From Terebella lapidaria (lineage: Eukaryota; Annelida; Polychaeta; Terebellida; Terebellidae): 64,000 nucleotides of DNA. Position numbers and translations under genes: made by a program. Shown here in pieces: positions 9,590-60,750 of this stretch. The stretch covers positions 9,927,953 through 9,991,952 of the forward strand of contig OX424565.1 in NCBI GenBank assembly GCA_949152475.1, read 5' to 3'. The notes beneath the pieces are model-generated. The model did not search any database and had not been told where the DNA came from. It saw only the letters and a list, made by a program, of their open reading frames with translations. The number at the start of each line of letters is the position of its first letter. The first letter of the stretch is position 1.

Positions 9590-11391
9590 GTGAACGTTTG
9601 TTGAACCGGTAAATGTGAAATCAACGCTAAATGTGAAACCTAACGGTAAATGTGAAAACACACTAACGCTAAATGTGAAAAATAACGGTAAATGTGAAAA
9701 CCAAGGCATTTGCCTTGACGCTAAATGTAATAACTATGTGCTTGACGCTAAATGTGAAAATATATATATAGTTACCACTCACAGTCATCAGACTGGTACG
9801 AACAACTAAGAACTACCCTCATCCCGAAAGGGATAGCATCGAAATGGATAGCCTGTCCTTCTCCACTCCCGCCTGGTCGACTGTAGAACCGTTTCACCCT
9901 AGTTCAAATCGGTTCTACAGGAAAGCAGGTGTTCCCATCACTGATCTGTCTTTTTATGTTACCGTATCTTTGATCTAACAAGCCACAGCATACAAGGAAT
10001 AGAATGCGTAAGACTATGTCCGGATGACATGTTTTTACGTTACCTGACAAAATGGATAACATCTCGCTTATTATCGACTTTATAGCTTAGATATCAATTG
10101 TGGACAGATAGAAAATGATATATGCTGAATATTCTGATGACCTTGAATTTGACCTTTGACCTCATTTTCAAGGTCACAGAACGAAATGGCTAATATCTCA
10201 CTTATTATCGATTTTACAGCTTAGGGATCAATTGTGGACATATAGGAAATGATATATGCAGAATATTGTCGTGAACTTGAATTTGACCTCTGACCTCGGT
10301 TGCAAGGTCAAAGCACAAAATGTCTAATATCGCGCTAATTATCACTTTACAGCTTAGGAATCAATTGTGGACATATAGGAAATGATATATGCATATTATT
10401 GCCATGACATTGGATTTGACCTTCAACCTCATTTTCAGGATCACAGGACAAAATGGCTAATATCTCGCTCTTTATCGACTTAACAGCTTAGCAGTCAATT
10501 GTGAACATATAGAAAATGATACATTCTGAACATTGTCATGACTTTGAACTTGACCTTTGACCTCATTTTCAAGGTTGCAGGACAACATAGCTAATATCTC
10601 GCTCATTGTCGACTTTACAGCTTAGGAATCAATTATGAACATATAGGAAATGATATATGCGGAATATTGCTATGACCTTGAATTTGACCTTTGACCTCAT
10701 TTTCAAGGTCAGAGAACGAAATGGTTAATATCTCGCTTTTTATCGACTTTACAGCTTATCAATTTATTGTGGACATATAGAAAATGATATACGGTATTCT
10801 GAACATTGTCATGACCTTGAACTTCACCTTTGACCTGATTTTCAAGGTCACAGGACAAAATGGCTAATAGCTAGCTTATTTTCGACTTTACAGCTTAGGA
10901 ATCAATTATGAACATATAGGAAATGATATATGCTGAATATTGCTATGACCTTGAATTCGACCTTTGACCTCATTCTCAAGGTCACAGGACATAATGGCTA
11001 ATATCTCGCTTATTGTTGACTTTACAGCTTAGGAATCAATTGTGGACATACCAGAAATGACATATGCGGAGTATTATCGTGTTCTTGAATTGACCAATGA
11101 CCTTTTTTTCCAGATCACGGGACAAAATACTAATATCTAAAATATATATTGTCCGGTAACCTTTCTTAGCCCTTGGGCTAATTTTCACATTTACCATCGT
11201 GATTTCTTTTCACATTTATAGTTAAGGGTGATTTCCTTAATTTTCACATTTAGCGTTAGGTTTCACATTTACCGTTAGTGTTTTTTACATTTACCGTTAG
11301 GTTTCACATTTACCGTTAGTGTTATTTTACCTTTACCGTTAATTTTTTCACATTTAGTGTTGATTTTACATTTAACGGTTCAATAAACATT
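9590..11391. mobile_element. Foldback element with tandem-motif inverted repeats
   Basis: The left arm (9590-9760) repeats AACGGTAAATGTGAAA / AACGCTAAATGTGAAA about eight times; the right arm (11190-11391) carries TTTCACATTTACCGTTAG in reverse about eight times. The outermost GTTTGTTGAACCGGTAAATG pairs with its reverse complement ending at 11391. The middle is filled by a HINE-like element. No protein. Confidence 0.75.
9955..11192 (+). mobile_element. HINE/pearl-like element nested in the foldback element
   Basis: Starts near GTTACCGTATCTTTGATCTA and ends TCCGGTAACCTTTCTTAGCCCTTGGGCTAA. About eight ~130-bp units (ATGGCTAATATCTCGCTTAT, TATCGACTTTACAGCTTAGG, GACCTTTGACCTCATTTTC) fill 10045-11120. 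The (ACGG)n tract is not evident in this copy. Non-coding. Confidence 0.65.
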
Positions 11392-13845: not shown

Positions 13846-14845
13846 TAGGTTACCGACCCTTTAGTCCGATAATCTATTGGCATGGTGTTGCGTCCGTCGT
13901 CATATGACAAAATGGCTAATATCTCGCTTATTATCGACTTTACAGCTGAGGAATCAATTGTGAATGATATTATGATATACTCTGAATATTGTCATGACCT
14001 TGACTTCGACCTTTGACCTAATTTTCAAGGTCACAGGACAAAATGGCTTATATCTCGCTTATTATCGACTTTACAGCTGAGGAATCAATTGTGAACATAA
14101 TAGGAAATTTTATATACAGAATATTTTCATGACCTTGAATTCGACCTTTTAACCTAAATTTCAAGGTCACAGGACAAATTGACTACTATCTCACTTATCG
14201 ATTTTACAGCTTAGGAATCAATTGTGAACATATAGAAAATGATATATGTTGAATATTGCCATGACTTCGGATTCGACCTTTGAATCATTTTCCAGGTCGA
14301 AGAACAAAATGGCTAATATCTCGCTCCTCTATTGACTTTATATCTTGGGAACCAATTGTGGACATCTAGAAAATGATAAACACTGAATATTTTGATTTCG
14401 CTTATTATCGACTTTACAGCTTAGGAATCCATAGTGAACATATAGAAAATGATATATGCTGAATATTTTGGGGACCTTGAATTTGACCTTTAACCTCATT
14501 TTCCATGTCGGAGAACAAAATGGCTAATATCTCGCTTATTATCGACTTTACAGCTTAGGAATTTATTGTGAACATTTTAAGAAATAATATATACTGAATA
14601 TCCTCATGATTTTGAACTTGACCTTTGACGTCATTTTTAAGGTCAGATCATAAAATGGCTAATATCTCACGTATTATCGACCTTACAGCTTAGTAACAAT
14701 TGTGGACATACTAGAAATGATATATGCTGAACATCCTCGTGACCTTGAATTGACCAATGACCTTATTTTCAAGGTCACGGGACAAAAGGCTACTATCTAA
14801 AATGTATATTGTCTCGCAAACTTTCTTAGCCCTTGGGCTAATTTT
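13846..14845 (+). mobile_element. HINE/pearl-like element, compact copy
   Basis: Begins TAGGTTACCGACCCTTTAGT then GTTGCGTCCGTCGTC, has about seven ~130-bp core units, and ends CTTTCTTAGCCCTTGGGCTAATTTT. This copy shows both ends and the order of parts most clearly; the ACGG tract is reduced to CGTCCGTCG. Non-coding. Confidence 0.75.
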
Positions 14846-15686: not shown

Positions 15687-15821
15687 TTACTCCTCCTCCT
15701 CTTCTTCCTCTTCCTCCTCCTCCTCTTCTTCTTCCCCCTCCTCTTCTTCTGCCGCCGCCTCGCCGTCCTCGTCGTCCTTGTGCTTCGCCAACACGTCCTG
15801 GCCCCACTCCGGTTTCTTGGA
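15687..15821 (-). CDS. TnI: Troponin I alternative C-terminal exon (distal), poly-Glu tail
   Basis: Acceptor TGTCGTTCGTACAG, then 45 codons including the stop: SKKPEWGQDVLAKHKDDEDG, EAAAEEEEG and a run of about 14 Glu before TAA at 15689-15687. It is the paralogue of the tail at 17727 (KPEWG, KHK). Acidic C-terminal tails are common in protostome troponin I. The poly-Glu coding run is a GAR triplet tract and probably varies in length. The 3' UTR continues to at least 15161, where AATAAA occurs on this strand. Confidence 0.9.
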   Translation of the reverse strand, partial: SKKPEWGQDVLAKHKDDEDGEAAAEEEEGEEEEEEEEEEEEEEE

Positions 15822-18800
15822 CTGTACGAACGACAGGCGGATTCTCAGCGTCAGAATATAACAATACTACTACTACTAATAATAATAATAATTAATATTA
15901 CTAATAATAACTAGACGTCGAGGCCTATAGGCCTTGAAGACATTTCAGTGTGAAGCACGAGGAGACAAACTGCTGACTCAGCCAAAAAAAAAAAAAACAG
16001 ATCAAAAAGTTCATCCTTGAAAGTTATAAGACCACTCTTTAGAGAGTCAGAAAATAATGTCAATTCTGCTTTATAACACACCAATTCCGAGATATCGGCA
16101 AAGACACAGAATGCCGAATCAGCGAAAGAAAATTCAGGTCAAGGTCGAAGTTTATCTCTGTCATTTCTGATGTATGTTTTCCAAAAAGAGGAGGAGTCTG
16201 TTCTGCTGTACTATATGTACCGAGATATCTACGATAATGAAATATGCGAAAATTCCAGGACAGGGTCAGAGTTCATCCATAATTCCCCATAGGCATGTTT
16301 TTCTATAGCGATGAGTCTGAAAATGACGCCCATTTTGTTCCACAACGCTCCGATTTCGAGATATCGATGAGAATAAAAAAATGCAGACTCAGCAAATTAA
16401 TTTCATGTCAAGGTCAAAGTTTATCCCTGATACCCCTAAGGTATGTTTATCTAAGTTCGAGTTCGAAAATAACGACCATTTTACTCTGCGTTGCTTTGTT
16501 TCGAGATATGGACGAAAAAGGAAATGTCAGGACGAGGGTCAAACTTCATACTTGATACCCCTAAAGTATGTTTGCCTGAAGTGACGAGTCCAAAAACAAC
16601 ACACATTCGCTCTACGACGCACAACTTACGAGATATGGACGAAACTAAAAAAGTGCTGACTCTCAAAAACAAAAATTCAGGTCAAGTTCATCCTTGAAAC
16701 CCCATGTTTGTCTGTGCAAGAAGATTCAGCAAAAACCCTTTAAGCCCTAGGTCGAGGGTCGTTCGACAGATGGGTATCCAACTCAATATGCTTCTTCTCT
16801 GGTGGTAAGGGGACCCCCATGCAAAGTTTAGTAGCCATTATTTGAATATATTTCTGTAATTATCGTCTGGACCCAAAAGAATATTGATTTCATCCTCACG
16901 GACCTCACGGGCCCGAATCAGAAGCAACAGGCTTCTTATATAGGCCGACAACATTCCTGACAGCAAAGAAAATTTGGCAAGGATTGAGGGGAAAAAAACT
17001 TTTTTTTTGACAAAACCATAAAGGCATAACCGCTGAAACGCCTTGATAACAATAACCTTAACGAAAAACAACGATAATATTAACGATAACAAAATAAATA
17101 AATAAAAAGATTAGGTTAATTGATAAATATAATCCATAAATGTTAAATTGCGTATATATATATATATTAAGATATGCCATATAGCCCTAATAAGAAGTGA
17201 GGTGTGCACTCAGTAAATCTGGTGCAAAACGACACGTCACACACAAGAGCATTCGACCGAGGCAGTGATTTGATCAGCACATGGACGTGACAACGTCATG
17301 TAGTAGATGACACGTGATCAGACACAAGAACACACGTGACCCTGCTACTGGCGACTAACAGACTACAGACTACAGGGGCAACACTTGGTTTGTGACCAGG
17401 GTGTGATTTGGAGGATTGACACGGACATGGAATGTTGTGATAGTGAACTTCATTGAACACACTCGTCGTTTCTAGCGCCATATAACACTGCAGCAATCTG
17501 CGCGTCTAGCTGCCAACAGTGAACGCACATAGCCTGCCCCCCCCCCCCCCCCACCCTGCGGTGTGAAGCCACACGCCACACAGTGTCAAGCCACACGAGC
17601 AATCAGTGTTCAGTACGTCTGATTCCGGCTCTGGGTGACTGTCCGCGACCGGAGCCGACACCCGCTCTTCGCTCTCGTCTTCCTCCTTGTGCTTCGTCAG
17701 GGACGACCCCCACTCCGGCTTCTCCTTCTGTCTCCCGGGAGATAGTAACCGTCAGACAAACACAGTAACAACGCCAACCTTCCAATCACTTCAATGTCCT
17801 CATAGGTTTACAAAAAAAATTATTGCTGGAACCAGAAATACTCTCTTATGTATTTCTGCTGGAACTCAGTTCTGTTTGACAATTACATGAGAACCACAAT
17901 CACGAGTCTGCTGGTGATGGCAACCAACCGAAATCTAGGTTGCATCAAGCACTGCTAATGTAGGCTGTTAAAACGGGTGCACATCATATACTGGTCTATG
18001 ACACATCAATCAACCACAACAAGTATTGCTCAAGAAAACATCATTGTATGTCAATAATATTCAGCACTCACGCTTAGCACTCAAACTCAGCTCTAACACT
18101 CAGCACTCACACTTAGCACTCAAACTCAGCTTTAACACTCGGCACTCACACTCAGTTCTAACACTCGGCACTCACGCTTAGCACTCAAACTCAGCTTTAA
18201 CACTCGGCACTCACACTCAGTTCTAACACTTGGCACTCACGCTTAGCACTCATACTCAGCTCTAACACTCAGTATTCACGCTAAGCACTCACGTTCAGCA
18301 AGCACATTCAGCACTCATATTCAGGTCTGGCACTCAGCTCTCACACTCAGCTCTAACACTCAGCACTCACGCTTAGCACTCACATTCAGTTCCAAAACTC
18401 AGTACTAACACTCAAGACTGGCACTCTCTCTAACGTTCTCAAAATTGGAAGTTCTACAACACGAACCAGCTAAACTTCGACAATACTAAAGTACAGCCAT
18501 TGAGGAGGTATTTAGTATTACATCGTAAATACATTTTTCCAGCGTTCTAGCTCACCCGAAGTTTGGGTTCGTTTGTCTGTGTTAGTAAGAATACAGTTCG
18601 TTACAGAAAACACATAAATATTTAGAATTATATCGGCTTCCAAAATACTGGCGAAACTATTAGGCATCGACGATCAAACAGAGGTACACTAGAAAGACGT
18701 ATTATGTATTTGAATATTTGATTTGTTATTTCTCAGTTATTCTGATTGAAGTTTTTATCATGAACAGTGATATATCTCAAACACCGACCTCTTCCTTCTC

Positions 18801-21800
18801 GTCCAGGGCAAACTTGGACTGTCCCGTGGACTTGAGCTGGTCCCGGAATCCCTCTCGCTTACTCTTCAGCTTTTCTTTGTCAAACTTGGCCATCTTTTGC
18901 TCTGTTTTGGAGATCTTCTTTAATACAGGTTTCACGCTACAAATGAGACGAAATGGCATCGTGAGACATCGTCGCCGCAATGGCACACACATCGATATGG
19001 ATCGATGAAAACATCAAAATTAATAATTTGTACCCAAACCGACAATCATAATTCTACTCACAATTTGCCCTTGATGTCGTTTACTTTTATAGTGAGTTCG
19101 TTTATCTGAAATAAAAAGCAAAGTTTCAATTTATAGTTATCAGGAACACTAATGCACGCGTAATCTATTCATACATAATCCTGGATGATGATCAGTTATC
19201 TTTATGCCATGTGACCACTGACTAGTGATGGCCAGTCCCTGTACAATGTGACCACTGACTAGTGATGGCCAGTCCCTGTACAATGTGACCACTGACTAAT
19301 GATGACCAGTCGCTGTACAATGTGACCCCTGACTAGCGATGGCCAGTCCCTGTACAATGTGACCCCTGACTAGTGATGGCCAGTCCCTGTACAATGTGAC
19401 CACTGACGAGCGATGACCAGTCTCTGTACAATGTGACCCCTGACTAGCGATGGCCAGTCCCTGTACAATGTGACCCCTGACTAGCGATGACCAGTCGCTG
19501 TACAATGTGACCCCTGACTAGCGATGGCCAGTCCCTGTACAATGTGACCCCTGACTAGTGATGGCCAGACCCTGTACAATGATACCCCTGACTAGTGATG
19601 ACCAGTCGCTGTACAATGTGACCCCTGACTAGTGATGGCCAGTCCCTGTACAATGTGACCCCTGACTAGTGATGGCCAGTCCCTGTACAATGTGACCGTT
19701 GACTAGCGATGGCCAGTCCCTGTACAATGTGACCCCTGACTAGTGATGGCCAGTCCCTGTACAATGTGACCCCTGACTAGCGATGACCAGTCCCTGTACA
19801 ATGTGACCCCTGACTAGTGATGGCCAGACCCTGTACAATGATACCCCTGACTAGTGATGACCAGTCGCTGTACAATGTGACCCCTGACTAGTGATGACCA
19901 GTCGCTGTACAATGTGACCACTGACAAGTGATGGCCAGTCCCTGTACAATGTGACCCCTGACTAGTGATGACCAGTCGCTGTACAATGTGACCACTGACA
20001 AGTGATGACCAGTCCCTGTACAATGTGACCCTTGACTAGTGATGACCAGTCGCTGTACAATGTGACCACTGACAAGTGATGGCCAGTCCCTGTACAATGT
20101 GACCCCTGACTAGCGATGGCCAGTCCCTGTACAATGTGACCACTGACTAGCGATGGCCAGTCTCTGTACAATGTGACCCTTGACTAGTGATGACCAGTCC
20201 CTGTACAATGTGACCCCTGACTAGTGATGGCCAGTCCCTGTACAATGTGACCCCTGACAAGTGATGGCCAGTCCCTGTACAATGTGACCACTGACTAGTG
20301 ATGGCCAGTCCCTGTACAATGTGACCCCTGACTAGTGATGACCAGTCGCTGTACAATGTGACCGTTGACTAGCGATGGCCAGTCCCTGTACAATGTGACC
20401 CCTGACAAGTGATGGCCAGTCCCTGTACAATGTGACCACTGACTAGTGATGGCCAGTCCCTGTACAATGTGACCCCTGACTAGTGATGACCAGTCCCTGT
20501 ACAATGTGACCACTGACTAGTGATGACCAGTCCCTGTACAATGTGACCCCTGACTAGCGATGGCCAGTCGCTGTACAATGTGACCCTTGACTAGCGATGG
20601 CCAGTCCCTGTACAATGTGACCCCTGACTAGTAATGGCCAGTCCCTGTACAATGTGACCACTGACTAGCGATGGCCAGTCCCTGTACAATGTGACCCCTG
20701 ACTAGCGATGGCCAGTCCCTGTACAATGTGACCCCTGACTAGTAATGGCCAGTCGCTGTACAATGTGACCCCTGACTAGTAATGACCAGTCCCTGTACAA
20801 TGTGACCCCTGACTAGCGATGTCCAGTCGCTGTACAATGTGACCACTCACTGACGGTCATGAGCTACACCTACCTCGACGTCTTGTTTCGCCAGTTTGAT
20901 CTCCCAGTCGTATTTTTCGTCCTCGAGAGCCACGACTTTCTTGTACAGATCGCGGACAATCTTCTCCAAGGAGCCTGTAACACACAGAACGGTGGCTCAT
21001 ACATAGGCAACATGTCAGACAAATATCATATGGCGACATCAACATTTCAGACAAATGTCAAACAGGGATTGCAACATGTCAGACAAATGTCATTCATTAC
21101 TTATTCGGTCCATAAGATTGTTTTTATTGAATATAATGTTTTATTACTTTGTGAAGAAGTTGTGCAGTGATAGGATAAAGTTATATAATCAGCCCAAGGG
21201 CTAAGAAAGGTTACCAGAGTAATGTACAATGTTAGACATACAACTTTTTTCAGTTCAATTGCTGCTTTCAGTAAAATTCACCAAAGGTCACCAAAACTCA
21301 AGGTCATGGAAACAACACCTGACATGAATAACCTACATACGTATTCCTGACCAGTGATGACCAGCCGTAACCAGCCATTACCTGCTCATAATACAAATCT
21401 AATACAGATATACAATCATTATGTCTGTCTGAGCTGTATACCCCCCCCCCCCCCCCAATAATTATAAATCTAGTCCGACGCACTTGAGTTCATACTAAAA
21501 CTATCATTGAATATACGCACGGGATATATCTCTGAATGTCGGCATAACTTTGAAGATTTATAATCTAATCTCATCATTATTATCGAAACAAAATTATCGA
21601 AATTTCATCGAAATTATATCATTTTGACTCTATCTTAAGTTATTTGACAAACTTATACCTATTTTGATATTCGGTTCAGAGGTATGAGGATATGAAGTAC
21701 GCAAGGATATTAAGGAAATTTAGATGAAATTTTGTAAATATGTTTTGGGCGTTACACGAAATGCAACAAATTGTGCAGTTCTTGGATTGTGCAGTTCTTG

Positions 21801-24800
21801 GACACACTCAGTTGTCTGTTCTTCATATGTATATAAATGTGCCAAATATTGGATTAGCTTTGTTCAGGTACTTGACGACACACGTTATCCCAAGTGCTGT
21901 TACAGAGTTATGTATGATCTCGATGCTGCACGTCGACATACTTGGGCCACGGATGTTAGGTTTCTATATGTAGGAATGGTTTCGGCCATGCCTGGCTTTC
22001 CCAGGGTGTAGGAAATATACAAAGGTTGACTGATGTAACAAAGCAAAATTGGTCTTCTGACATACATGACAAACCTAAGTTGGATACTAATCTTACGTTC
22101 AAGTTTGATTTGATAAGTGAGAAATATTTGTACTGTGTTAAAAGTGTGAGTCATGAGAAAGCTTTGTCCAGGTTTCGCTGCTCCATTCATAGATTGGCTG
22201 TAGAAAAATTAAGGGGTGTTTCGAACAGACAGAATATGGTCTGTAGAAATTGTCTTAAGTCTAGACTTGTATTAATCTTGGAAGATGAATATCACTTTGT
22301 CATGATCTGCCCTTCTGAGGTCAACTTCATGGTCAACAAAACATGCACCATATATGACTTCCTATTTGTCTACAATGCAATCCTAAGCTGTCATCTGAGG
22401 TCATGTCCAAGGTCACCAAAAGTTGTGTTATATATGACTTCCTTCATGTTCATTGCATAAATATACGCTCTACCTACAAGTATTTTGTCTGTATAGATGC
22501 GCCATATATGACTACCTTTATGATTATGATACAAACCTAAGCCCTATGTAGAAGCTCTTTCGCCTCATATGGCAATCTATCAATACTAGGTCATTCTGGG
22601 CATTTCGGGCCCACATATCAGGCCTTTTCAGTGACGGAATTCACTCCATCTTCAAATTAACCCAACCTAAATTAACCAAGAAAGATTACTGGAGAAATGT
22701 TTAGTTTCAAACCACAACTTTTTCCATCAAAATTGCCATTTTGACCTTTCAAGGTCACTGAAGGTCAATTTTGAGGTCACCATTGAAACTGCAATATATG
22801 ATGATTAGATACTGCCAATATTTAAACTGTAACTTGAAGTATTCTATGAGTTTACTCCATACAGCTCCCATTATGAGGCAAAATGAGGTCAAAGGTCATC
22901 AAAAAATTAGCCCAAGAACAATTTTGGTTTTAAGCATTGTAGGTGACATATGACCTCGAGATTTACCACCCAAAGTTATCTTTGTGAACTTCAATGTCAC
23001 CATCAGGTGTGCTGCATATAACTTCCTATATGTTCGTATTACAAACATATGCAGTCTATTAATAAGTATTTTGTATGTAGAGGTCGATTTACACATTTCA
23101 GGTTGGGCGAGACTTTGAGATTCGTCTAAGGTCAAGTTCAAGGTCACCAAATAATGTGCCAGATATATATGACTTCCTATAAGCTTATACAGTGGTCCCC
23201 CTTAGATAAGACCTACCTTTCTGCCACAGAATAAGGGTCTTATATAAGAAGATGTCTTGTTAGAGGGGTTCATTCACATGTTAACATTATCCTAGCGCCA
23301 TAAGGACAGGTCTTTACAGAGGGGGAAGCCTTTATTGAGGGGGGTCTTATCTGATGGGGACCACTGTAATACAATCCCAACTTCAAGCGCTGAGGCCTCA
23401 GCGGCCAAGTTACACATTCCACGTCAGACATTTAGCACTCAAGGTCATCAGAGGTCAAGCTCAAGATCATCATTAGCTGTTCCATATAGGACTTCCTATA
23501 TGCCCATAAAGCAAACATAATCTCTAGCTACAAGCATTCCGTCTGTGTAAGCAAATTTGGGAGGTGATTAGAATATTAAGCATAAATCATTTCCTATATG
23601 TCCATAATTGTTTCCTGATCTCCAGTCATAATATTGAGTAATATATTAAGGAATAATGTGTCTCATTATGAAGCTTGCGAGAATTTAACATTGGAAAGTC
23701 CCATTTGAGCCAAGTTTGGGCAAAAATGGCCCATTTCGAGCGATTATGTGAGTCATATGCATCAATCAGAAAAAGAAGTTATTGGAGAGATATTAAGAAA
23801 TCCTTTCCCAGATTTTCCGAAAGACTGGACCGTTAACATAAGATAAATATGTTTACAGACGACGGACGGACGGGCGGCCAGACGTACGGACAATGAACGC
23901 AACGCCAAGACAATAGCTAATCGGACCATAGATCCGGTACTCTAAAAAATAGATTAAAAAAATCAGCAACAGATAAAGTGTGGGTTGTGGTTTTGTGGAG
24001 AAAATCCTGAGCCATAAAACAATCAGTACTGAAAAATAAAAAAGTTTGTAGAACTAGTGTTAAAACAAGTTTGATAAACATATACACACAGTGCGGGAAC
24101 GCATTTAGTGTCACCGAATGAACAAAAGTGCGAAGATATAAATACAAGATTAAACAAAATAATTAACAGAGCACTGAAACAAAATGTGTTATTACGCAAT
24201 CACTGTTAGTGTACAAGGCCGGCGGTTATTTTGGGTTACTGTGGGCGTGGCAGGAAACGTGGTTGCTGTATGGCGTCACTCCGGCCTTACCCTGGTCCTT
24301 GCCGGCCAGATCGAGAACAGGCATTCGGCCTTCGATCACCTTCCTCTTCGCCTCGGCATCAGCCTCTTGTTGCTTCTTCAGGTCCTCGGCCGCCTTTTGC
24401 ATGATCAGTTGCTATTGGTGAAAACATGTCATGTGATCAGATCAGGTTACTGCGTTTGAAAATGTGAATTTGGCCAATGAGGATGATGATGATGCGGTGA
24501 CGCGGTAAAGGTTGGTTAGTATGGACCGGAAGCAAGCACGTCTGATCATCCAAGGAAGGGTTAGTCTCTGTGCAAAAGAAACCACCTGTACTAATCGCCG
24601 AAAGTTCACGAAATTCGAACCAACGAATTGCAGAGCTGAAAGAGAAGTGATTCGACTTCAGGTTAGCCCTGAGGTTGAAGAGTTAATCACAACATAGAAC
24701 AAATCGTTCCATGCAAACACCGCTCCTCCGTCCTCTCCCCCTTCGAACTGATCAGTCAGGGACATTTGTGAAGAAACAAATTAAAAAAGTTAGATAGGCT

Positions 24801-27800
24801 TAACTTGATTTGACAAAAACACGACATATACGGACGTGACTACGTAGAACATGACTACGATGACAGTGTGGGTGTGGTGCGTGCTATGGTGGTGTTAGAG
24901 GCATGCTAACCTTGGTCCAGTCCCTCTATAGCTAGAGGCGGGACTCTTTTCCCCAGAACTCGTGTCTTCTCCCGCAGCTGTTCCTCCTGTCCGTGTTTCA
25001 GGTCCTCTATGGCCTTGTCCATGCACACCGACTGGGAAGGGTTAAGTGGTAACACGGGGGTAAGTACAGAACTCGCTCGCAGACATACACTCCCAGCCCG
25101 ACCCCATCATTTTATCCTGTAAGTGTAGCTACAGTCAAGGAAAGCAACACAAACAAAAAACATCACATTTCAAACCATGCAGCTTTCTGTGGTGAAGTGG
25201 ATTATGAATATGATGGTGATGAATATGATTCGGATGATGAAATCACATTATAACAATACTTGGTCTTACAGTAGATGTTTTTTTTTCGATTCTCTTCAGT
25301 GAATACAGTTAATAGAGTTACTGTTTAAAGAAAAAAAAACATAAGAGGACATCATTAATCCAAACATTGGGAAACCTAAAATATGCTGAAACAATTAGAT
25401 GTTTCAGAGATCTTCCAGCAGCATTCTGAAGTTCTGAAACTCTAGCTACATACAGCCCAGTGACTGCGCATGCGTACACTAGTCTATGCAGTGTTGTGTA
25501 AGATGCTTCGGGTGACGACAAACCACAGCAAAACACCGCTACACACGTGGTCGTGTATTAGCATGAATCTCTCTCTTGTTATCACCACACTGAGCTATTC
25601 TAGATGTCTCACTGAGCGCCTACCAGAAACCGCAATTTTCAATAGCAAATTTCCAGTGACTGTGGTCGAAAGATGCCCCGCGGTAGGGCGAAATTGCGAG
25701 GTGTAATTTTGATCTCGATGGGCGGAAACTCGCTCGGGGGAGGAGATTGACAATTTGTGTCAAGGGTCAGTGTATGAGTAATACCTTCAGAAGCTTCTTC
25801 TTCTCTGGGGATAGGCCTCCCAATCCCTTCCTCTTGCCCTTCTTCTGTAAAAAGGAGGGAGGAAAGAGAGATTCAGTCTGTATCGGTCGGCAAAATGCCT
25901 TGAGTGAGGAAGGCAGGGAAGTATGGATCAGTGCGGTGTCCATGACAACAGAAACAAATCTCCCTGTGGTGTCGCTGGACACTCAGGGATTAGCGGTTAG
26001 TCAATTTTTGCCCAGACTACTGACAAAAATTATCTCATCATCAACCGAAAATGATAAAAAAATCTTGTGCTAATGAATAAATAAAAATCAATATAAACAG
26101 ACACGGCATGTCCGGGGGCAGTACATGATCAAACGGTTGCCAAATCAGAAATAATCCCAAAACAATGCTTGCACAAGGCATCAAACTCGTGTAAAACAAA
26201 ACGTGTGCGTGTATGTATGTATGGAAACCTCGTGCAGTAAGCAATCATACATACATACAAAACAACTGAGCGGATCATGAAACCAATGGCTCCGGTTTAG
26301 TATGCTAAATTTTGGATGACTTTAGATTTGACTGGTGGCATTCACTGTTGCTAAGCAGTCCCTGTTGCTATGTGACAAGCGATGTACCATGTACTGAACC
26401 GACGCAGCCTGCAAGAAGAAAGTCTGACAGCCACGTTAGACATATGATATAAGAGTGATAACTCTGATAAGTTCACATCAGATAACGTACTAATCTGAAA
26501 GGATAGCTCTAGACTTTCTTCTTACAGCGGTTCCCGGGGTCTAAACTCGAAATACACAGAACAGTGGCGAGGAACTGACGATAGCAGGGATGTAGGAGAA
26601 AGACAACGTAATAAACACAACAGAATCTGTAACTTATTGTATACACGATTACACTACAATAGATTATTTATATCAGTAGAAACGATCAATACAAATCATG
26701 CACACGGTGTCGAAGGTACTGCACATATACAACAATAATTACTTCACGCTGTTATTACTTGAAAACTTCATGTATTCACAAATAATATACTCATTTGTGG
26801 AAGCATTCATTCCATCCAAAAGTGAATTGTCACATCAAGATATCTTTCTCAGAAAGCAGCTGGTGAACAGGACCAAATCACGAACTGCTTCATGATATAA
26901 CAACCACTAACTTGTATGATAAAACAAGCATATTCCCATTTATTTCGGGACAAACAGAATGATTGACAGTTCACCTTAAGAACCTGACACGTAGGCGAGT
27001 ACTCTCTCATCAAACACACCTTCACACATCGTGGCACTACATGTACTTACGTCATCATCGTCGTCGTCGGGGTTGTCATGGTTATCGTCAGGGTGCAGCA
27101 CGGTCTTGACAACAGTCGTCACACGAAACAAGGGTTGATGGGGATGGAGTGAACATGCGCGACAAAGCAAGAGACAACACTGAGATAATAAGTATTTTGC
27201 GTGCACAAGTCAATACTGAATCAACAGGCTGATGCCGAGAGTCAGGAGCAGGGCGCTGACATTGTTTGCTGTCTGTCGCGTGGCTTACAGGTTGACTCCA
27301 GGCCTGTTGTTCTCTGCGCTCGGTTGCACGTCTTTTCCTCTCCTCCAGGAGCTCCCTCTGCTGTCGGGCCCGCTCCGCTTGCTCCCTCTGGGCCACCTCC
27401 CGGGCCATCCAAGTCGCATCGACCTCGCGCGCTACTCTGCCTGTCCCGGGCCGACAGCAGACCGGGACAGAGCTATCCGCACTAGTCTGTACGGGAGAGG
27501 GTGGGAGTGGGGGTGGGGAATTGTGTTAGTGGGAGTGTAGACATTTCGGGGGCTGAGGAAGGGATTTGAAAATGCACGGTGCCTTGAATAGACGGATTTC
27601 CTAAATATTTCCAAAATATTCCTAATTTCCTGAAGACTTGAATCTCAATTGCCTTCGAAATTGAGGCTTGTATTTATAGATCATTGATTGGTTATTTCAG
27701 CATCTCTAAAGGAGCCACGAATTACTTCAGGAATGCCCCGTCTACCTAAGGTACCGACGTGTGGATTCTGACCTGGAGCCTGCTGCTCCATTCCGCAGCC

Positions 27801-30800
27801 CGACGTCTGACGTCTGTGGGGAACCCAGCCGCCTGGGGCTCTGGGGGTGGGCTGGTGGGGAGCTGGATGGGCTTTTTACCCGACACAACCATGTTCTGAG
27901 ACCACAGTTCCCGCTTGCGTTCCATGGCAGCCTTCCTCTCGGCCTCTGTCACAACCCCTTCATCCTTCCTGGGGCTAGCCCTGTTAATCTCTCCGCTCGC
28001 CACAGGGAAGCGCCTTCGTCCGGTGTCAATTTCCGCCGGAATGGGCCGGGCCACTTGCCCGGGACTCTCTCCTGTTAGACTCTCTGTCCGCGCCAGTAGA
28101 TTTCGGACCTTGTCTACCACCACCCGCTGTGGCAACATATCTTCTGACTCTCTGTTCATCTCATCTCCAGTGGCAACCTTCAAACCGAGTCCGTCGCTAG
28201 ATGACATCAGCTCATCCGTCCTCTCTCCATCCTCTTGTCTCGCCGAAGAAACTCCTGAACTTTCAGTTAGCGAGTTGGTCTCAAGTTCGGATCGTCTGTC
28301 TTCAACAAGTGTTGTGACGTCGTGCATGGTGTCTACTACATTATGTATGTGGAATTTATCTTGTCTGGTAATGTCAGTGTTGCTAGAATCATCGTCGATG
28401 TATTTGTCTGGACCTGACATTGAGACATTCGGTATTGTATCCTGCTCGGGCCTTAATGTGTCTTTTGTGCTCTCGAAACTAAAACTGATAGCATTTCTGT
28501 AAGTTTGACTTTGTTCTGTGTGTGGCGGAGTTTTTGATGATTTGAGTGATCTTATGTGATCTGATCCCGTCTCGTACTGAATATCAATTCTGTCTGTATC
28601 CAAGGATATGTCGCTTTTGACATTTTCTGGTGTCGTTTCGTCTGATAAGTCTAAATGATCAATTGTTTTGTCTGGATACATGTTAGCTGTTGTGCCTCCA
28701 GTCACGTCTTCTACGTCTGTCATGTTCACGGTAAGCGCAGTCCCTGAGATGGTCACGTCTGTCGTGTCCACGGTAAGCGCAGTACTCTCTGAGATAGTCA
28801 CGTCTGTCATGTCCACGTTAAGGGAAGTACTTTCTGAGATGGTCACGTCTATCGTGTCCACGGCACACGCAGTACTCTCTGAGATGGTCACGTCTGTCGT
28901 GTCCACGGTAAGGGCAGTACTGTCTGAGATGGTCACGTCTATCGTGTCCACGGCACACGCAGTACTCTCTGAGATGGTCACGTCTGTCGTGTCCACGGTA
29001 AGGGCAGTACTGTCTGAGATGGTCACGTCTGTCGTGTCCACGGTACGTGCAGTACTCTCCGAGATGGTCACGTATGTCGTGTCCACGGGATGCGCAGTAC
29101 TGTCTGAGATGGTCACGTCTGTCGTGTCCACGGGATGCGCAGTACTGTCTGAGAAGGTCACGTCTGTCGTGTCCACGGGATGCGCAGTACTGTCTGAGAT
29201 GGTCACGTCTGTCGTGTCCACGGGACTCGCAGTACTCTCTGTGATGACCAGGTCGGTCATGATGTCATCGTTATACCCGCCTGTCTGTGGCTGCTGCATG
29301 GCGCCGACGTCTGGGGCTGACCCCGACTCTGGGGGTGGGTATGGTGCTGTTGTCATGGTGAAGGTTGCTACCTCGGACTGACAGGCCAACAGCAAACATC
29401 ATGCAGGAAGGCGAGGGTAGCGATGTTAGTATACAAGCAAACGATCAAGTGGTTAAGCGTACATGGGTGAACATACAAAGCTACCAATTTTATAAAACGT
29501 CGAATAAATGTCTCGTTGCTTCCAAGTGCATTTTGAAATAGCGATGTGACAGACATTGTGTCTGAATGAATGAATTGAAATCCATGTGATAAACAGGGAG
29601 AAATTTTGTTAATTTTGTTTCGACATTTAGCTTACCGTGGTGTAATGTCTTAGTACCAGAACAAGATGATAGGATAATATTACAATAGTTACTTGAGACG
29701 TAATAGTTTGGACGGTATCACAGTAAGGCAGTTTACAGCCCACCTCTGTCGTATTTCCCGTCTTCAGTCCTGTCTGGGTCTACATCAGTCACACACACTG
29801 TACTTACCAAATCAATTTTACAGAGCGCTACATACAATCACATGACCTGTCGGCATGACAACGCCACCCACGACACCACAAAGTCACCAAAAACTATCGG
29901 AGCCCGTACTCACCTGAAATACAGGGGAAAATGGTGCAGTTAAATTATAGAAAATAACATCACTTGCACAATCGTCAATATTTATCAAATATACATCTAG
30001 GCACACATTATCGTACTCGATCCAAAGATTGAACTAAAATCAGGCAATTCATGTTGAATAAAGGAGTTAGGTGAGGACATAGATGCAAGCAGATATTAAT
30101 CCCATATGACCAAGTACAAACTGTCAGTGACGACGTTAAGATATGTCAGTGAAACTGGGTGTGCCAGGGTACTACCTGAGCGCGGCTACGAGGGCACTCA
30201 GGGCTCAGCCCGAGGGTGTGGTTAGTGACGGGAGGGGACAGGGGCTGGTTGCCAAGCACATGATCATCATCCTCGACCAAGGTACGACGTCGGTGTGTGC
30301 GCCATGACGTCAGACTGCTGGTGATGGCGTCATACGTGTCGTCACTCTGCTTCAGTTGGCTCGGGGTGAGGGTAAGGGGGGGGGGGGGGATATTAGGCGG
30401 GATGAATCGGGCAGACGGACGGGGGGGGGGGGGGGGTATAGGGCCGGGATGAGTTAACAAACACCCACAAAATAAAATACATGCTCAAAAATGAAACCCA
30501 CAAAAAATAATACAACCACGAATGACACTCAAGATGGACTGAACGATATTATGTTAGTGTTAGTCTTTTGAAAACATGCACATACCGGTAGTCATAAAAG
30601 TGAATGTTAAATTGTATTGATGCTAAATATTGCGAGGTTCTCTGGTTGTATAAAATATCACTAATTGGTTGTTATTCAGTCTGCCATTAACGTGATCTGC
30701 CACTGTAAAACTAGATAACCATATTGAAATTTACTCGCAGTGTCCTGCTTACCATTCACCAGCTGTTTACGTATGAACGGTGAATCCAAGAGATGATTTG

Positions 30801-33800
30801 TGTTGTGACTGTTGGGTTTTCATCTAATTATTTACCGCGCACTAGATAATGAGTTGACATTTTTGTGATTTTTTAAAAATCACGTTTTCAATAAAAATCA
30901 GCCCAAGGACTGAGAAAAGTTACCAAACAATTTTGGTTTTAAGCATTGTAGGTGACTTTGAGATTTACCAGTCAAGGTCATCTGTGTGAACTTCAATGTT
31001 CCCATTAGGTATGCTGCATATGACTTCATATGTGTTCTTAATACAAACATATAAGCTCTATCAACATATATTTCATCTGTAGAGGCCAATTTACACATTT
31101 TAGTCAGGCAAGATTTTGAGATCTGGCCTTCAAGTTCGTTTAAGGTCAAGTTCAAGGTCACCAAAAGGTGCGCCATATATACACGACTTTTTATGGGCTT
31201 GTACACAATCCGAGCCTGTATGTGTTTAAGCCTCAGAGGCCACTTCACAGATTTCACGTCAAGATATTTAGCACGCAAGGTCATCCGAGGTCAAGATCAA
31301 GGCCATCATTAGTTGTTCCATATACGACTTCCTATATGTTCATAATGTAAACTTAAGCTCTATCTACATGCATTTCATCTGTAGAGGCAAATTTGTGCAT
31401 TTTTCGACCCAAAAGTGGCTATTTTGGCCTTTCAAGGTCATCAAAGGTCAAATTCAAGGTCACCTCACAAACCGCCATATATGACTTCATATTTGAAAGT
31501 GTCAATATCTAAGCACTATCTTCCAAAACTTTTTCCAAAGGGTGAACATTTTTATGGGCCTAGAAATGGCCCAAAATGGATAGTAATGCAATTTGGGGCA
31601 AAATTTTTTTCGCCGACCCGTCAATAATTCAAAATGGCCACCAAACGGAGACTGGCGATGCAAGGGCAAACAAAACTTATACACGTCACAAAGGTACATA
31701 AGAGGAATCATTTTAAACAAAACTCTCAAAACTGATCAGACAGTTTTACTGGTAGGTTACTGGACAATATAATTATAGTAGATATTTTGTCTCGTGGCCT
31801 TGAAAATAAGGTCACGGTCAAATTTACAGTCACAAGAGTATTCAGCATACATGATTTCCTATACGTTCACAATTGATTACTAAGCTGTAAATTCAGTAAT
31901 AAGAGAAATATTAGTCATTATGTCCTGTGACCTTGAAAAAATCATAAGTCAAATTAAAGGTCATCAGAATATTCAGCATATATCATTTGCTGTATGTCCA
32001 CAATAGAATCCTAAGTTGTAAATTTGATAATAAACAAGATATTACCCAAGTTGTCCTGTGAGACCTTGAAAATGAGGTCAAAGGTCAAATTCAAGGTCAT
32101 GACAATATTCAGCATATTTCATTTCCTATCTATCCACAATTGATTCTCAAGTTGTAAAGTCGATAATAAGCGAGATATTAGCCATTGTGTTCTTTGACCT
32201 TGAAAATGAGGTCAGAACTCAAGTCAAAGGTCATCACAATATTCGGACCATATCATTTCCTATATGTCCACAATTGATTCCTAAGCTGTAAATTCGATAA
32301 TGAGCGAGATATCAGCCGTTTTGTACTCTAACCTTGAAAATGAGGTCAAAGGTCAAATTCAAGATCATTAGAATATTCGGCATATGTCATCTCCTATATG
32401 TCCACAATTGATTCCTAAGCTTTAAAGTCAATATTAAGCGAGACAGTAGCCATTTCGTACCTGATCTTGAAAATGAGGTCAAAGGTCGAATTCAAGGTCA
32501 TCCAATATTTGGCATACATCATTTCCTATACGTCCACAACTTAGTCCCAAGATGTGAAGTGGATAATAAGCGAGATGTTAGCCGTTTTGTTCTTTGACCT
32601 TGAAAATGAGGTCCAAGGTCAAATTCAGGGTCATCGGAATATTCAGGCTATATCATTTCCTGTATGTCCACAATTGATTCCTAAGCTGTAAAGTCGACAA
32701 AATATTAGACATTTTGTGCTCTGACCTTGAAAATGAGTTCCAATTCAAATTCGAGGTCATGACAATAATCAGCATATATCATTTCCTATGTGTCCACAAT
32801 TGATTCCTAGTCTCTAATCTCAATATTAAGTGAGATATTAGGTATAATGTGTCCCATTAATTATAAAGCATAGGAGAATTTAACAAGAAAAAGTCCCAAT
32901 TTTGACCTGTCGAGAAAATGAAAATTTCCGCTACACGCAGACCGGCGATTAAGGGGCAACGAAACTTATCCACATCACAGAGGTATGTGAGAGCAATCTT
33001 TTGAAATAAAACTGTCTGAACAGTTTTTGCGAAAATGGCCGCCAAAGTCAGAAATTGGCCGTTTCTTTGGCGAAAAATGCGAAAAAAAAAATACCCCTCT
33101 TGAAATATACTTAGGTATTTTTGCGCAAAATTTCAGAAAGATCCGATCGTAAACCTTAAAGATAAAAATGTGGCCGGACGATGCGAACGGATGGGCGTTA
33201 CGGGCAGACCCAATGTTAAATTTCCTATCTTAACTTTCCTCGTAGATCCTGTAAAAATTCCCGTAAAACCGAACTTTCGGCTTAAACCATAGTTAGGGGG
33301 CATTTTCAGCTTTTCTCCCCCCCCCCCAAGCTTTCCCCGTAAACCCTTTTGGTATGCCCGGACGGACGGACGGACGGACGACGGACGCAACGCCATGGCA
33401 ATAGGTTATCGGACCATAGATCCGGTAACCTAATATATAAATCGTCTTTGCCATAGCTTGTGAAGAAACCATGAGAATAACATAGTTTGCCTTCAAGTCA
33501 TCTGTACATAGCCTGCACACCCAACCATCATTTACTGATATCGTAACTTTGCAGTTCCATGAAAATCGATCACAAACGCTCTACTATGCGTAGAATAATG
33601 GGAGTTTTCAAATAGCGAATATTTAACACAATAATATAAACTACCGCCAGGAAATGACGCATAGAAACATATTTGTACGACAAATATGGACGTTTTTTTT
33701 CTCAGAAAGATGTTTGTTTGATGAAAACCAACATTTGTTTCAGAATACAGTAGAGAGATACAATAAATGGAATCCAATTGACTGACTGACTGACTGACTG

Positions 33801-50864: not shown

Positions 50865-51492
50865 GGCTGGTGCTGCTGCCTGGTGCTGGTTGTGGTGTCT
50901 TATGCCGAATGCCTGATGCGGTGTGAGTAAATGACTTCTTCACCCCGAACACGTCTGAACACGGGTCGTACCCTGGGATATATCACAGACCCACAGTGAG
51001 TCGGTCACTAGGAGTCGGGAAAATAATGTTATAATGTGGTCGCAATTGTCCACTTTGCATGTTGAACTTTGCTGGGATGACAAGGAAGTCAATTTGAACA
51101 GCGGACTGGTAATTTCGGCATGTGACCGCCCATCATCGAACGAGGAACGAGTCAAATCAATTAAGGCCTGATGTCACGAGAACGAGTCAAATCAATTAAG
51201 GCCTGATGTCACGAGAAAATTCCTACAAGTGTAGCTATGTCTGTGTGTGTTTGAATACACACTACATGTACATAAATACAGATAACGTTCGTAAATGAAG
51301 TTCAAACGATGCAGTAATATTCCCAGATATAATTTAAATGTGAAAGGGAATCTGCTCGTAGAAGACGAACCACTTAATATATTGGAAACTGTAAATAATT
51401 AATCGCGTCAAAAATATGTCGTTGATATGTGATACTATACGTATGAAGTAAGCCGTAATCTAATTCCTGAATATACGCATCACTTATCATGT

Positions 51493-53015
51493 GTGGAAAT
51501 CCTCGTTGATATTATTTGTATAAGAAATGTTGTTACAGGTTTTGTGTTTTGGCACATAATTTTATTGCGTGCTGGGGACATAGAGTCTAATCCTGGCCCT
51601 ATTGGTGGTAGTGTCGGTTATAGTGATATTTCTATGTGTCACATCAATGTTCAGAGTTTACGCAATAACAAAGAAAAACTTGAGCATGTAAGGCTGCAAC
51701 TGAGCGGTAATTTCAAAATAATCACTGTCTCCGAAACCTGGCTCGACTCTACATTTCCGAGCCATGATTTCGATTTGCCGAACTATTATCCCATATTTCG
51801 TCGAGATCCAAATTCCAATTCCATCGGTGGCGGAGTTGCGACCTGGGTTTCCTCCCGCCTGTCTATGAAGCGGCGGCGTGACCTGGAGTTTGATAATATC
51901 GAAGCTATGCGCCGTCTATAGGTCACCGAGCGGAACCGTCGATTTTTGGGATAAAATCCAATCCTCGATGGATATTGCTCGCGATATGGGCAACATAAAT
52001 ATCGTGATACTTGGTGATTTCAATGCCGATGACAACACCAATCACGGCAGACACTTCAATTTCATTGTGGAGGTCAATAACTTTACGTCACGTATAAATG
52101 AGCCCACACGTATGACTGCATCGTCTCAAACAAAGTTAGATAGGATAGTTACCAACTGCCCCCACTTTGGTAAAAGCAGTGGAGTTCTGGACCCGCTTCT
52201 CTGCAATGATCATTCCACGGTATCGATATCGTTGTTGTTTAGATACAGAAGTGCTCGTCTTTATAAACGGACAATGTGGCACTATGACAAGGCTGATATC
52301 AATGGCTTGAAAGAATATTTGCAACGAATCGATTGGGATTCGGAGTGTAATATCTTTGTTGATGTTGACATTGCCACTGATAAATGGACATCTGTTATTC
52401 TCACCGCTGCCAAGCAATTCATTCCTAATAAACATGTAACTGTTCGTCCGAATGATAAGCCTTGGTTATAGTGGTGAACATAGGCGCCTGAAGCGTGAAT
52501 GCTAAAAAGCGCATCTGGCTGCAAAGAAAGGCAATACCCGGAAAATCATAAGTTCTGTTCGGCTGTTGATGACGGCAAAGAAGTACGGGTCTTATTCTTG
52601 GGTATCAGTCACTGTGGTAACAGTCCCTGAGCTTCATAAAACAGGCATAGGTGACAACCTCCTGAAATGGTTGGCTAGCTGTCTGAGTGAGAGACGTCAG
52701 CGTGTATGTATAGGCCAGTTCTCGGAATGGGGTAATATTGAGTCGGGAGTTCCACAGGGATCTGTTCTAGGACCTCTGTTATTTTCAATCTTCATCAATG
52801 ACATTATCGAAGTAGTCAAGTTCACCAGTAGTCGTCTTTATGCGGACGACAGGTGCTAGTTTCTGACAGTTGATAACCGAAAGATCGCAGCTGATTGCAT
52901 CAATCAAGATATGCATGCGATTCAATCCTGGACTAATCAATAGCTTGTAACTTTTAGTCCGAGCAAGACAGAAGCAACGGATATCTCTAACAAGCGTGAT
53001 CTGCATTCGCAACCT
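51493..53015 (+). mobile_element. CR1-like LINE, 5' and central part (endonuclease and RT), with 2A-like peptide
   Basis: Opens with RAGDIESNPGP, a 2A ribosome-skipping motif known at the N terminus of some CR1-type LINE proteins. An APE endonuclease follows: HINVQSLRNN, SETWLDSTF, LGDFNADDN, LDRIVTN, NDHSTVSIS. Then come reverse transcriptase blocks SGVPQGSVLGPLLFSIFIND and YADD (52745-52855) and WTNQ..VTFSPSKTEATDISNKRD. The frame shifts near 51910 with apparent loss of ~20 codons, and a stop at 52471 precedes an internal deletion that removed most of the RT fingers. Its 3' part continues at 56700 after inserted elements. A dead copy. Confidence 0.85.
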
Positions 53016-57914: not shown

Positions 57915-60750
57915 ACAAAAATCAATAATGAAAGTGATATTAGCATTTTTTCCCTGTGACCTTGAAAATGTCAAATTAAAGGACATCAGAATATTCGGCA
58001 TTCATCATTTCCTGTATGTACACAATTGATCGTCGAGTTGTAAAATCGGTCATAAACGATAAATTAGCCTTTTTGTTGTGTGACCTTGGAAATGAGGAAA
58101 TAGGTCAATATCAAGGTCATGTACATATTCAGCATACACAATTTCCTGTATGTTTACAATTGATTCCTAAGCTGTAAAGTCGATAATAAGCGAGATATTA
58201 GCCATTTTGTGCTCCGACCTTGTAAATAGAATCGAACGTCAAATTCAATGTCATGAGAATATTCAGCAACATAATTTCCTAAATGTGCACAGTTGATTCC
58301 CATGCTGTAAAGTCGATAATAAGCGAGATATTGATCATTTTGTGTTCTGACTTTGAAACTAAGGTTCCATTTCGAGGTCAAGACAACATTCAGCATATAC
58401 CCTTTCCTAAATATGGACAATTGATTCCTGAGCTGTAAAGTCGATAAAAAGCGATATATTAGTCATTTTGTGCTCTGACCTTGAAAATGAGGTTAAAGGT
58501 CAAGTTCAAGTTCATCGAAATATTTGGCATACATCATTTCTTATATGTATACAAGTGATTGCTGAGATGGAAATTAAAAAATAAGAGAGATATTAGCAAT
58601 TTCCTGCTTTGAGCTTGAAAATGAAGTCAAAGGTCAAGTTTAAGGTTCTACGAATATTCAGCATATTCAGATATTTACAAGTTCTGTAAATATCTGTTAT
58701 CCGTGTCTTATAATACATAAAATTCGGCTGTTCTCGGTGAGCTTGGAAGATTGCCTTTGAATGTTTTATATATGTATAGGTGTGTCAAATTTTGGCTGCA
58801 AATAGTCCATGACAATAACGTTAGGATACGAAACTCTTTGTACAGTGCATTGAAGACGTTTTCAGATAATGGGAATAGAAACTGGGTATCCGACGTAAAA
58901 AAATATGTTATACAGATATGGATTTGGTGAGGTCTAGCTTCAACAGAGTGTTGGCAACTCATCTTTATTTTTATTTTACATTCAGACAGCGCCTCATAGA
59001 TGTGTCAGAACAGAACTGGCATGGAGAATTATGTGATAATTTCAAACTAAACATGTATAAAAACTACAAAAAGTCACATGTCCTTGAGGTTTAGTTATCA
59101 ATAAATATTCATTGGAAGCATCGTGTAGCATTGTCAAGATTTCGTTGTGTGAACATTAAGTTATCTTTAGAACGCCTCCGATTTTCGAAGACTGATCGAT
59201 CGCAGCGTTTGTGTAAATTTTGTAAAATTAACAGTTCTGAATTTGCAGAAGACGAGGTTCACTTGTTGTTGATATGCCCTTTATATTCTGAAATAAGACA
59301 TGTGTATTTGAGTAAATATATAAATAGTGTCATGAATCCGATTGAAAATTTCAAAATCATAATGTCAAGTGAAAACCATATATTGTTGAAAAATTTGGCA
59401 GCGTATGTGTTCCATGGTATGGATGTCCATAACAACTATTACTTTGATATGTAGCATAATCTTTTCATGTATCCAACGTTTGTGGTGTTTGCTTGTGAAA
59501 TTGTCTATTTTGCATATGGGCCAAAGGCCCCTTTGAGAATGAAGTATCATCATCATCATCATCATCACCCTCATCATCATCATCATCATCATATATCATT
59601 TATTATATATGCACAATGGATTCCCAAGCTGTAAAGGCGATAATAAGCGAGATATTTGCCATTTTGTCCTTTGACATTGTAAATGAGGTCAGAGGTCAAA
59701 TTCAAGGTCATCTGAATATTCGGCGTATATCATTTCTTATATGTCCACAACTGATTCCTAAGCTGTAAAGTCGATGATAAGCGAGATATTAGCCATTTTG
59801 TGCTCTTGACCTTAGAAATGAGGTAAGAGGTCAAATTCAAGGTAACGAGAATATTCAGCATATATCATTTCCTATGTCCAAAATCTATCAATGAGCTGTA
59901 AAATCGATAATAAGTGAGATAATAGCCATTTTGTCCTGTGACCTTGAAAATGAGGTCAAAGGTCAAATTCAAGGTCACGACAATAATCTGCATATCATTT
60001 CCTATATATTCATAATTGATTCCTAAGCTCTAAAGTCGATAAGAAGCGAGATATTAGCCATTTTGTTATGTGACCTTGAAAATGAGCCAAAGGTCAAATT
60101 CAAGGTCATCAGAATATTCGGCATATATCATTTCCTACAGGTCCACAATTGATTCCTAAGCTGTAAAGTCGATAATAAGCGAGATATTAGCCAATTTTGT
60201 GCTCTGACCTTGAAACTGAGGTCAAATTCAAGGTCATGAGAATATTTAGCATATATCATTTCCTATATGTCCACAATTGATTTCTAGTCTCTAATCTCAA
60301 TATTAAGTGAGATATTAGGTATAATGTGTCCCATTATAAAGCATAGGAGAGTTTAACCTGGGAAAGTCCCATTTGGGCCGAGTTTGGGCCAAAATGGCCC
60401 ACTTTCAGCGATTCAAGCGCAACGAAACTTATACGCGTCACAGGAGTACATATGAGGAGTGTTATGTATCAAAAAAAAAGTTACTGAACAGATTTGGAGA
60501 AAATGGCTGCCAAAGTCCAAAATCAGGCATTTTACGTAGAAAACGGCCGCCATTTTGAATAAAAAAAATGCGAAAATCGGAAAACTGAAAAAATTCTTTC
60601 CTGGAAATATTTTTAGGTATTTTTGTGCAAAATTTCAGAAAGATTCGATCGTTAACTTTAAAGATAATAATGTGAACGGACGGACGGACGACGGACGACG
60701 GACGCAACGCCACGACAATCGGTTATCGGACAAAAGGGCCGGTAACCTAA
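57915..60750 (-). mobile_element. HINE/pearl-like element with long tandem core
   Basis: About sixteen ~130-bp units (GTCAAATTCAAGGTCAT, ATATCATTTCCTATATGTCC, ATTGATTCCTAAGCTGTAAA, GATAATAAGCGAGATATTAG) in two blocks, 57930-58680 and 59590-60320, split by a LINE fragment. It ends with a (GACG)n tract near 60680-60710 and TATCGGACAAAAGGGCCGGTAACCTA. Non-coding. Confidence 0.7.
58690..59592 (+). mobile_element. LINE 3' end with (CAT)n tail, inserted in the tandem core
   Basis: Plus-strand protein with SRFRCVNIKLSLERLRFSKT, then CKFCKIN and EDEVHLLLICPLYSEIRHVY: the C-terminal knuckle of CR1/L2-type LINE proteins. A 3' UTR with GGGCCAAAGGCCCC hairpin is followed by a (CAT)n run at 59549-59592, a typical simple-repeat tail. 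5'-truncated. Confidence 0.75.

Follow-up and report, generated by a model that had tools for sequence, protein, structure and literature searches.

The question raised by this locus is whether a single very long exon gives troponin I, a small and well-studied regulatory protein of muscle, one of the very long arms that are known from only a few animals. The locus lies in a 64,000-nt stretch of the genome of the annelid Terebella lapidaria (assembly GCA_949152475.1, contig OX424565.1, positions 9,927,953 to 9,991,952), referred to below as the window; all positions are given in window numbering unless another contig is named, and the troponin I locus is read on the minus strand. An earlier note on this DNA had described an open frame of 535 codons at 27773-29377, in phase 0 on both sides, and had given no strand for it. 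The frame and its phases were borne out, and its strand is the minus strand.

The exon (535 codons, 1605 nt, with an uncertain 5' end; the giant exon below) occupies most of an open frame of 550 codons (29398-27746, minus strand), which is the longest of the 6808 stop-to-stop stretches in the window; the runner-up, of 240 codons, is the antisense of the giant exon's own repeat. As the open frame overshoots the acceptor by just 7 codons and the donor by 8, its ends fit the splice sites. Both ends of the exon are in phase 0; the acceptor AG ends at 29378, and the donor, CAG/gtcaga, follows 27773. The exon encodes a short Pro/Gly/Gln-rich start, a series of 15-residue Thr/Ser/Asp repeats, an acidic stretch and a basic tail. 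An in-frame ATG in a good context (CTTCACCATGACA) is found at codon 8 (29354-29356, minus strand), 21 nt inside the exon, and is the likely start codon of a giant form. The exon designated E2 lies 286 nt further on, and its phase matches both the giant exon and troponin I. We consider it probable, with appreciable room for doubt, that 27773-29377 is truly coding, that as the 5' exon of troponin I it has its own start at 29356, and that it is joined from the donor at 27773 to E2, yielding a heavy chain about 796 residues long.

Position, strand and frame all support the assignment of the giant exon to the troponin I gene. It sits 5' of the mapped troponin I exons, and no other gene was recognised beside it on the minus strand in a search that was not exhaustive. 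When the 761.6-Mb assembly was searched with the Pfam Troponin profile, four exon-sized matches were obtained, three of which are in the window, on the minus strand. The gene model was completed from the reading frame and the splice sites and comprises, all on the minus strand, E2 (27289-27486), a Glu/Arg/Gln-rich N-terminal segment with an ATG at codon 27; E3 (25785-25844; KKGKRKGLGGLSPEKKKLLK); E4a (24911-25031) and E4b (24291-24411), which are also marked by Pfam matches; E5 (20874-20974); E6 (19062-19105; INELTIKVNDIKGKF), with the start of the inhibitory region; E7 (18789-18936; VKPVLKKISK...), with the inhibitory region and C-terminal part; and the last exon, E8b (15687-15821), with a poly-Glu tail and the stop codon TAA. 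E4a and E4b each encode a version of the opening section of the troponin domain, as alternatives to one another; because they are equal in length (121 nt) and phases and alike in sequence, they are probably used one or the other. A possible alternative C-terminal exon, E8a (17603-17727, minus strand; KEKPEWGSSLTKHK...), has a provisional 3' end, and a join made with this end falls out of frame.

The troponin identity of these exons is shown by their matches. E2 to E8b, with E4b, match Pfam Troponin (PF00992) at 1.6e-32 over profile positions 1-132 of 134, and E3 to E8b, with E4a, match it at 3.2e-33. Among solved chains the best troponin I reached 57.8 bits and the best troponin T 27.1. The 24-residue troponin I peptide 3tz1_B, from scallop, aligns across E3 and the start of E4b (1.3e-5), and the inhibitory motif GKF-x-[RK]-P is present, as GKFVKP, once, at the E6/E7 join. 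Judged by these matches, the downstream exons are nearer to troponin I than to troponin T. The inhibitory region is described for rabbit and tarantula troponin I in PMC2674065. As expected, the 49-residue E7 peptide had no relative in prokaryote genome contigs or in viral contigs, in one scan of each. From the giant exon through E8b, eight exons join in frame with either E4. The join totals 803 residues, and from the giant-exon ATG the predicted product has 796 residues and 87.9 kDa, in agreement with the earlier expectation of a chain of more than 750 residues if the exon is included. The ATG of E2 would start a short form of 242 residues and 28.2 kDa; the predicted heavy form more than triples this protein size.

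The same arrangement bears on the possibility that the giant exon belongs to a separate nested transcript or gene at the 5' end of troponin I and is never joined to it. Its own ATG, and a sequence without a recognised tie to troponin, are consistent with such a transcript; its frame, however, stops 8 codons beyond a good donor, and E2 follows shortly in phase with both the giant exon and troponin I. On the rough score by which donors and acceptors were ranked, the donor at 27773 scores higher than any other GT from 29377 to 27500 and ranks third among the gene's eight donors. We regard a separate transcript as highly unlikely.

The exon's coding character was assessed mainly in the 313 codons that follow the repeats. 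These contain no stop, compared with a mean of 12.6 and a minimum of 3 in 2000 dinucleotide shuffles. The purine fractions at codon positions 1, 2 and 3 are 0.69, 0.52 and 0.55, and this position-1 bias was equalled by 0.4% of 5000 random window stretches. A codon score was derived from 4601 codons in 33 stretches of myosin and kinase sequence of the same assembly; with it, the true frame of the post-repeat codons comes first of six, narrowly (log-odds 3.5 vs 0.8), and its value was reached by 0.7% of 4000 random stretches, a rank that higher G+C may partly explain (window average 41%). The basic tail scores 23.5, the true frame again being first of six.

Several other observations weigh against the giant exon as a working part of the gene. 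Over the acidic 198 codons the true frame scores -20.0 and ranks third of the six. When synonymous choice is the sole criterion, 7.9% of random stretches equal the post-repeat stretch, and an antisense frame (41.8) beats the true frame (-9.4). The ratio of non-synonymous to synonymous change (dN/dS) across ten repeat units is about 1.16, with no purifying signal, a value that tells little here, since these units are either young or homogenised. A search of the giant exon against Pfam gave just DUF2786, at an E-value of 0.18 and below the cut-off, and no solved structure matched it at E up to 1. One possible explanation is that the sequence is an unexpressed or decaying relic, with an openness that comes partly from the copying of an open repeat unit. 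The repeats without purifying signal, their other reading frames, which are likewise open, and the poor codon fit of the acidic part all suit a relic; the stop-free non-repeat codons, set against at least 3 stops in every shuffle, and the purine bias outside the repeat argue the other way, and we find this explanation improbable. On balance, the giant exon is probably coding and fast-changing.

Among the 68 matches listed for the giant exon in the assembly, all but the exon itself were weak and of low complexity, and a query made of the tail, E2 and E3 gave three matches, all to this gene; both searches score their best candidates alone. Since the matches were limited in this way, no processed copy of the joined mRNA was found.

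A likeness of the end of the giant exon to the next exon had also been claimed. The tail and E2 do resemble one another more than shuffled sequences do (fractions 0.003 and 0.001), but the likeness is not outstanding among charged segments. The tail-E2 score is 54; out of 4281 segments, two that are charged but unrelated exceeded it (56 and 55) and one equalled it. As a proof of common origin the similarity was rejected, since other charged segments match or exceed it.

The 5' edge of the giant exon supplies further unfavourable points. Of the acceptor and donor that the earlier note had called good, the donor is indeed the best local GT; the acceptor is weak, at 0.25 the eighth of the gene's ten, and acceptors upstream of it score better (29913, 6.25; 29561, 2.25). 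No upstream exon was identified: by eye, no troponin-like coding exon was seen in 29400-30700, and none was found among stop-free stretches of at least 40 codons up to 36000. About 540 nt upstream of the giant exon, at 29916 on the minus strand and directly behind an acceptor-like tract, lies CAG/GTGAGT, the sole CAGGTRAGT in the window on either strand. This site may serve as a leader-exon donor or as a recursive splice point of zero length. The strict pattern for ratchet splicing (five pyrimidines, then any base, then CAGGTRAGT) is absent from the window, and 29916 fits only a looser form.

Such an upstream exon is also what an internal cassette would need: it would be coding and provide the start, and the giant exon, in phase 0, would be either retained or left out. 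Phase 0 at both acceptor and donor, and a frame that is open over the 7 codons preceding the ATG, agree with a cassette, and 29916 could end its upstream exon. The weak acceptor, the well-placed ATG and the lack of a recognised troponin-like coding exon in the upstream intervals just given speak against it, and we consider it unlikely. With an ATG in a good context at codon 8, nothing requires the exon to begin at an internal splice in phase 0; the weakness of the acceptor, together with an ATG 21 nt into the exon, therefore favours an exon with its own start, spliced to E2, over an internal phase-0 exon. Where the exon has its own start, its 5' edge could lie further upstream.

The repeats themselves form a 45-bp tandem array at 28713-29246 (minus strand), with 11.9 copies at 88% match. 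At the protein level, codons 53-202 hold ten complete units of 15 residues, followed by one of 14 residues, with degenerate edges, which is close to the twelve or so units that had been counted earlier. Phosphorylation by CK2 was considered as a working mechanism for the repeats and was rejected, as its sites are not enriched (26, against a shuffled mean of 25.7); this too counts against a functional arm. The arm is strongly acidic: the repeats carry a net charge of -32 and the 198 residues after them one of -24, before +6 in the basic tail and +3 in E2. The charge-hydropathy rule classes the repeats as ordered and the remaining segments, as well as the troponin core, as disordered; because the core is classed in this way too, the test has little power here. 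The spring-like arm suggested earlier finds no structural support.

From the arrangement of the exons we infer the following course, in its start codon, splicing, skipping and every mechanical step. Translation would start at the giant-exon ATG (29356), and splicing of the 27773 donor to E2 would give the heavy troponin I of about 796 residues. Where the giant exon is skipped, the ATG of E2 would be used, and the product would be an ordinary chain about 242 residues long; since skipping transcripts could start in E2, the giant exon would act as an optional N-terminal arm. The acidic arm would leave the troponin I core at its N-terminal side and project from the thin filament, and by analogy with what is ascribed to the C-terminal Pro-Ala arm of insects it might, by acting as a charged spacer or tether, adjust filament spacing or access.

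Several features of the locus and of the assembly were recorded beside the giant exon. A 37-bp minisatellite of 44 copies (19209-20851) fills most of the E5-E6 intron. The Glu run of E8b recalls the Glu-rich C-terminal tail of insect troponin T (PMC2674065, PMC13322953). Arrays of a 133-135-bp repeat rich in AGGTCA are found at 10046-11138, 14398-14798, 31784-32841, 57964-58665 and 59586-60318. Exact AGGTCAAAGGTCA sites, which have the form of a nuclear-receptor DR1 element, occur seven times in the window with both strands counted, one of them (22886) outside these arrays. At 51433-52471 (plus strand) are the remains of a non-LTR (long terminal repeat) retroelement, with weak endonuclease matches below Pfam cut-offs and a GDIESNPGP motif, which resembles a 2A peptide.

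Some 25 kb past the last troponin I exon, beyond the window and likewise on the minus strand, is a troponin T gene, at about 9918100-9913765 of contig C12. Its exons were chosen by eye, and a join of two of them is closest to troponin T among solved chains. TNNI and TNNT genes stand in pairs in mammals and are unpaired in amphioxus and tunicates (PMC9825255), and the troponin I/T pair at this locus therefore bears on whether the pairing is ancient. Elsewhere in the assembly, a muscle myosin gene on contig C1 (67002015-67016119, minus strand) matches certain parts of the profile several times over (positions about 99-165 and 593-640) and probably holds clusters of alternative exons. For a 150-residue query from a muscle myosin of the assembly, the best matches among solved sequences were eight from squid and scallop. 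A number of small contigs (for example C25, C110, C149, C150, C186, C235 and C255) carry kinase or myosin matches with many in-frame TAA and TAG codons and few TGA. Some ciliates read TAA and TAG as Gln, and an associated ciliate is, on this codon pattern, probably present in the assembly.

The earlier note had placed known troponin I chains mostly at 180-300 residues, a range that proved too narrow. The heavy troponin (TnH) of Lethocerus flight muscle is a troponin I form of about 70-80 kDa (PMC13322953, PMC6726838), and sea urchin HpTnI, with a long N-terminal extension, is about 52 kDa (PMC5341096); since these forms exist, large size alone is not new. As far as is known, an N-terminal acidic repeat arm on troponin I would be new. 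The titles and abstracts of the literature searched, a set that leaves out most subscription papers and so supports no claim of absence from print, held no molluscan giant troponin I, and passages of PMC5963113 and PMC12040844 yielded no information on the size of troponin I. Predicted forms named 'troponin I-like isoform X4' and 'troponin T-like isoform X18' appear for abalone in PMC11250055, and automatic annotation of related genomes may already list a form of this kind.

Our broader proposal is held tentatively, as a possibility that falls somewhat short of being probable: that this animal makes a heavy troponin I of about 88 kDa through one exon adding an acidic N-terminal arm of 15-residue repeats, and that this is a second, independent heavy troponin, with its arm at the end opposite to that of insects and of a length free to change by repeat expansion. 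If true, it would point to more than one origin of heavy troponins, and it could explain missed or mis-sized troponin I bands in muscle, as argued for sea urchins in PMC5341096. It would also offer a clean test of arm function, since a single gene can encode an ordinary form beside the heavy one.

Added N-terminal arms of other kinds are found on troponin I. That of vertebrate cardiac troponin I, which the present arm resembles in being such an addition, has about 30 residues with PKA sites; RRxS/T (PKA) sites are absent from the giant exon, and one, RRAT, is found in E2. Akazara scallop troponin I has a Glu/Arg-rich N-terminal extension of more than 100 residues, in a total of about 292, and E2 resembles that extension in its Glu/Arg-rich character; the scallop protein is not known to have a giant repeat exon. 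Sea urchin HpTnI shares with the predicted heavy form a long N-terminal extension, but is smaller and lacks the TnC-binding switch region, and the passages describing it in PMC5341096 mention no repeats. With insect TnH the predicted form shares a large low-complexity arm on an ordinary troponin I core; its mass would be 87.9 kDa if the predicted join is made, vs 70-80 kDa in the insect. The insect arm is reported to help order the flight-muscle lattice and to be dispensable for stretch activation (PMC13322953). It is C-terminal and Pro-Ala-rich, whereas the arm described here is N-terminal, Thr/Ser/Asp-rich and acidic.

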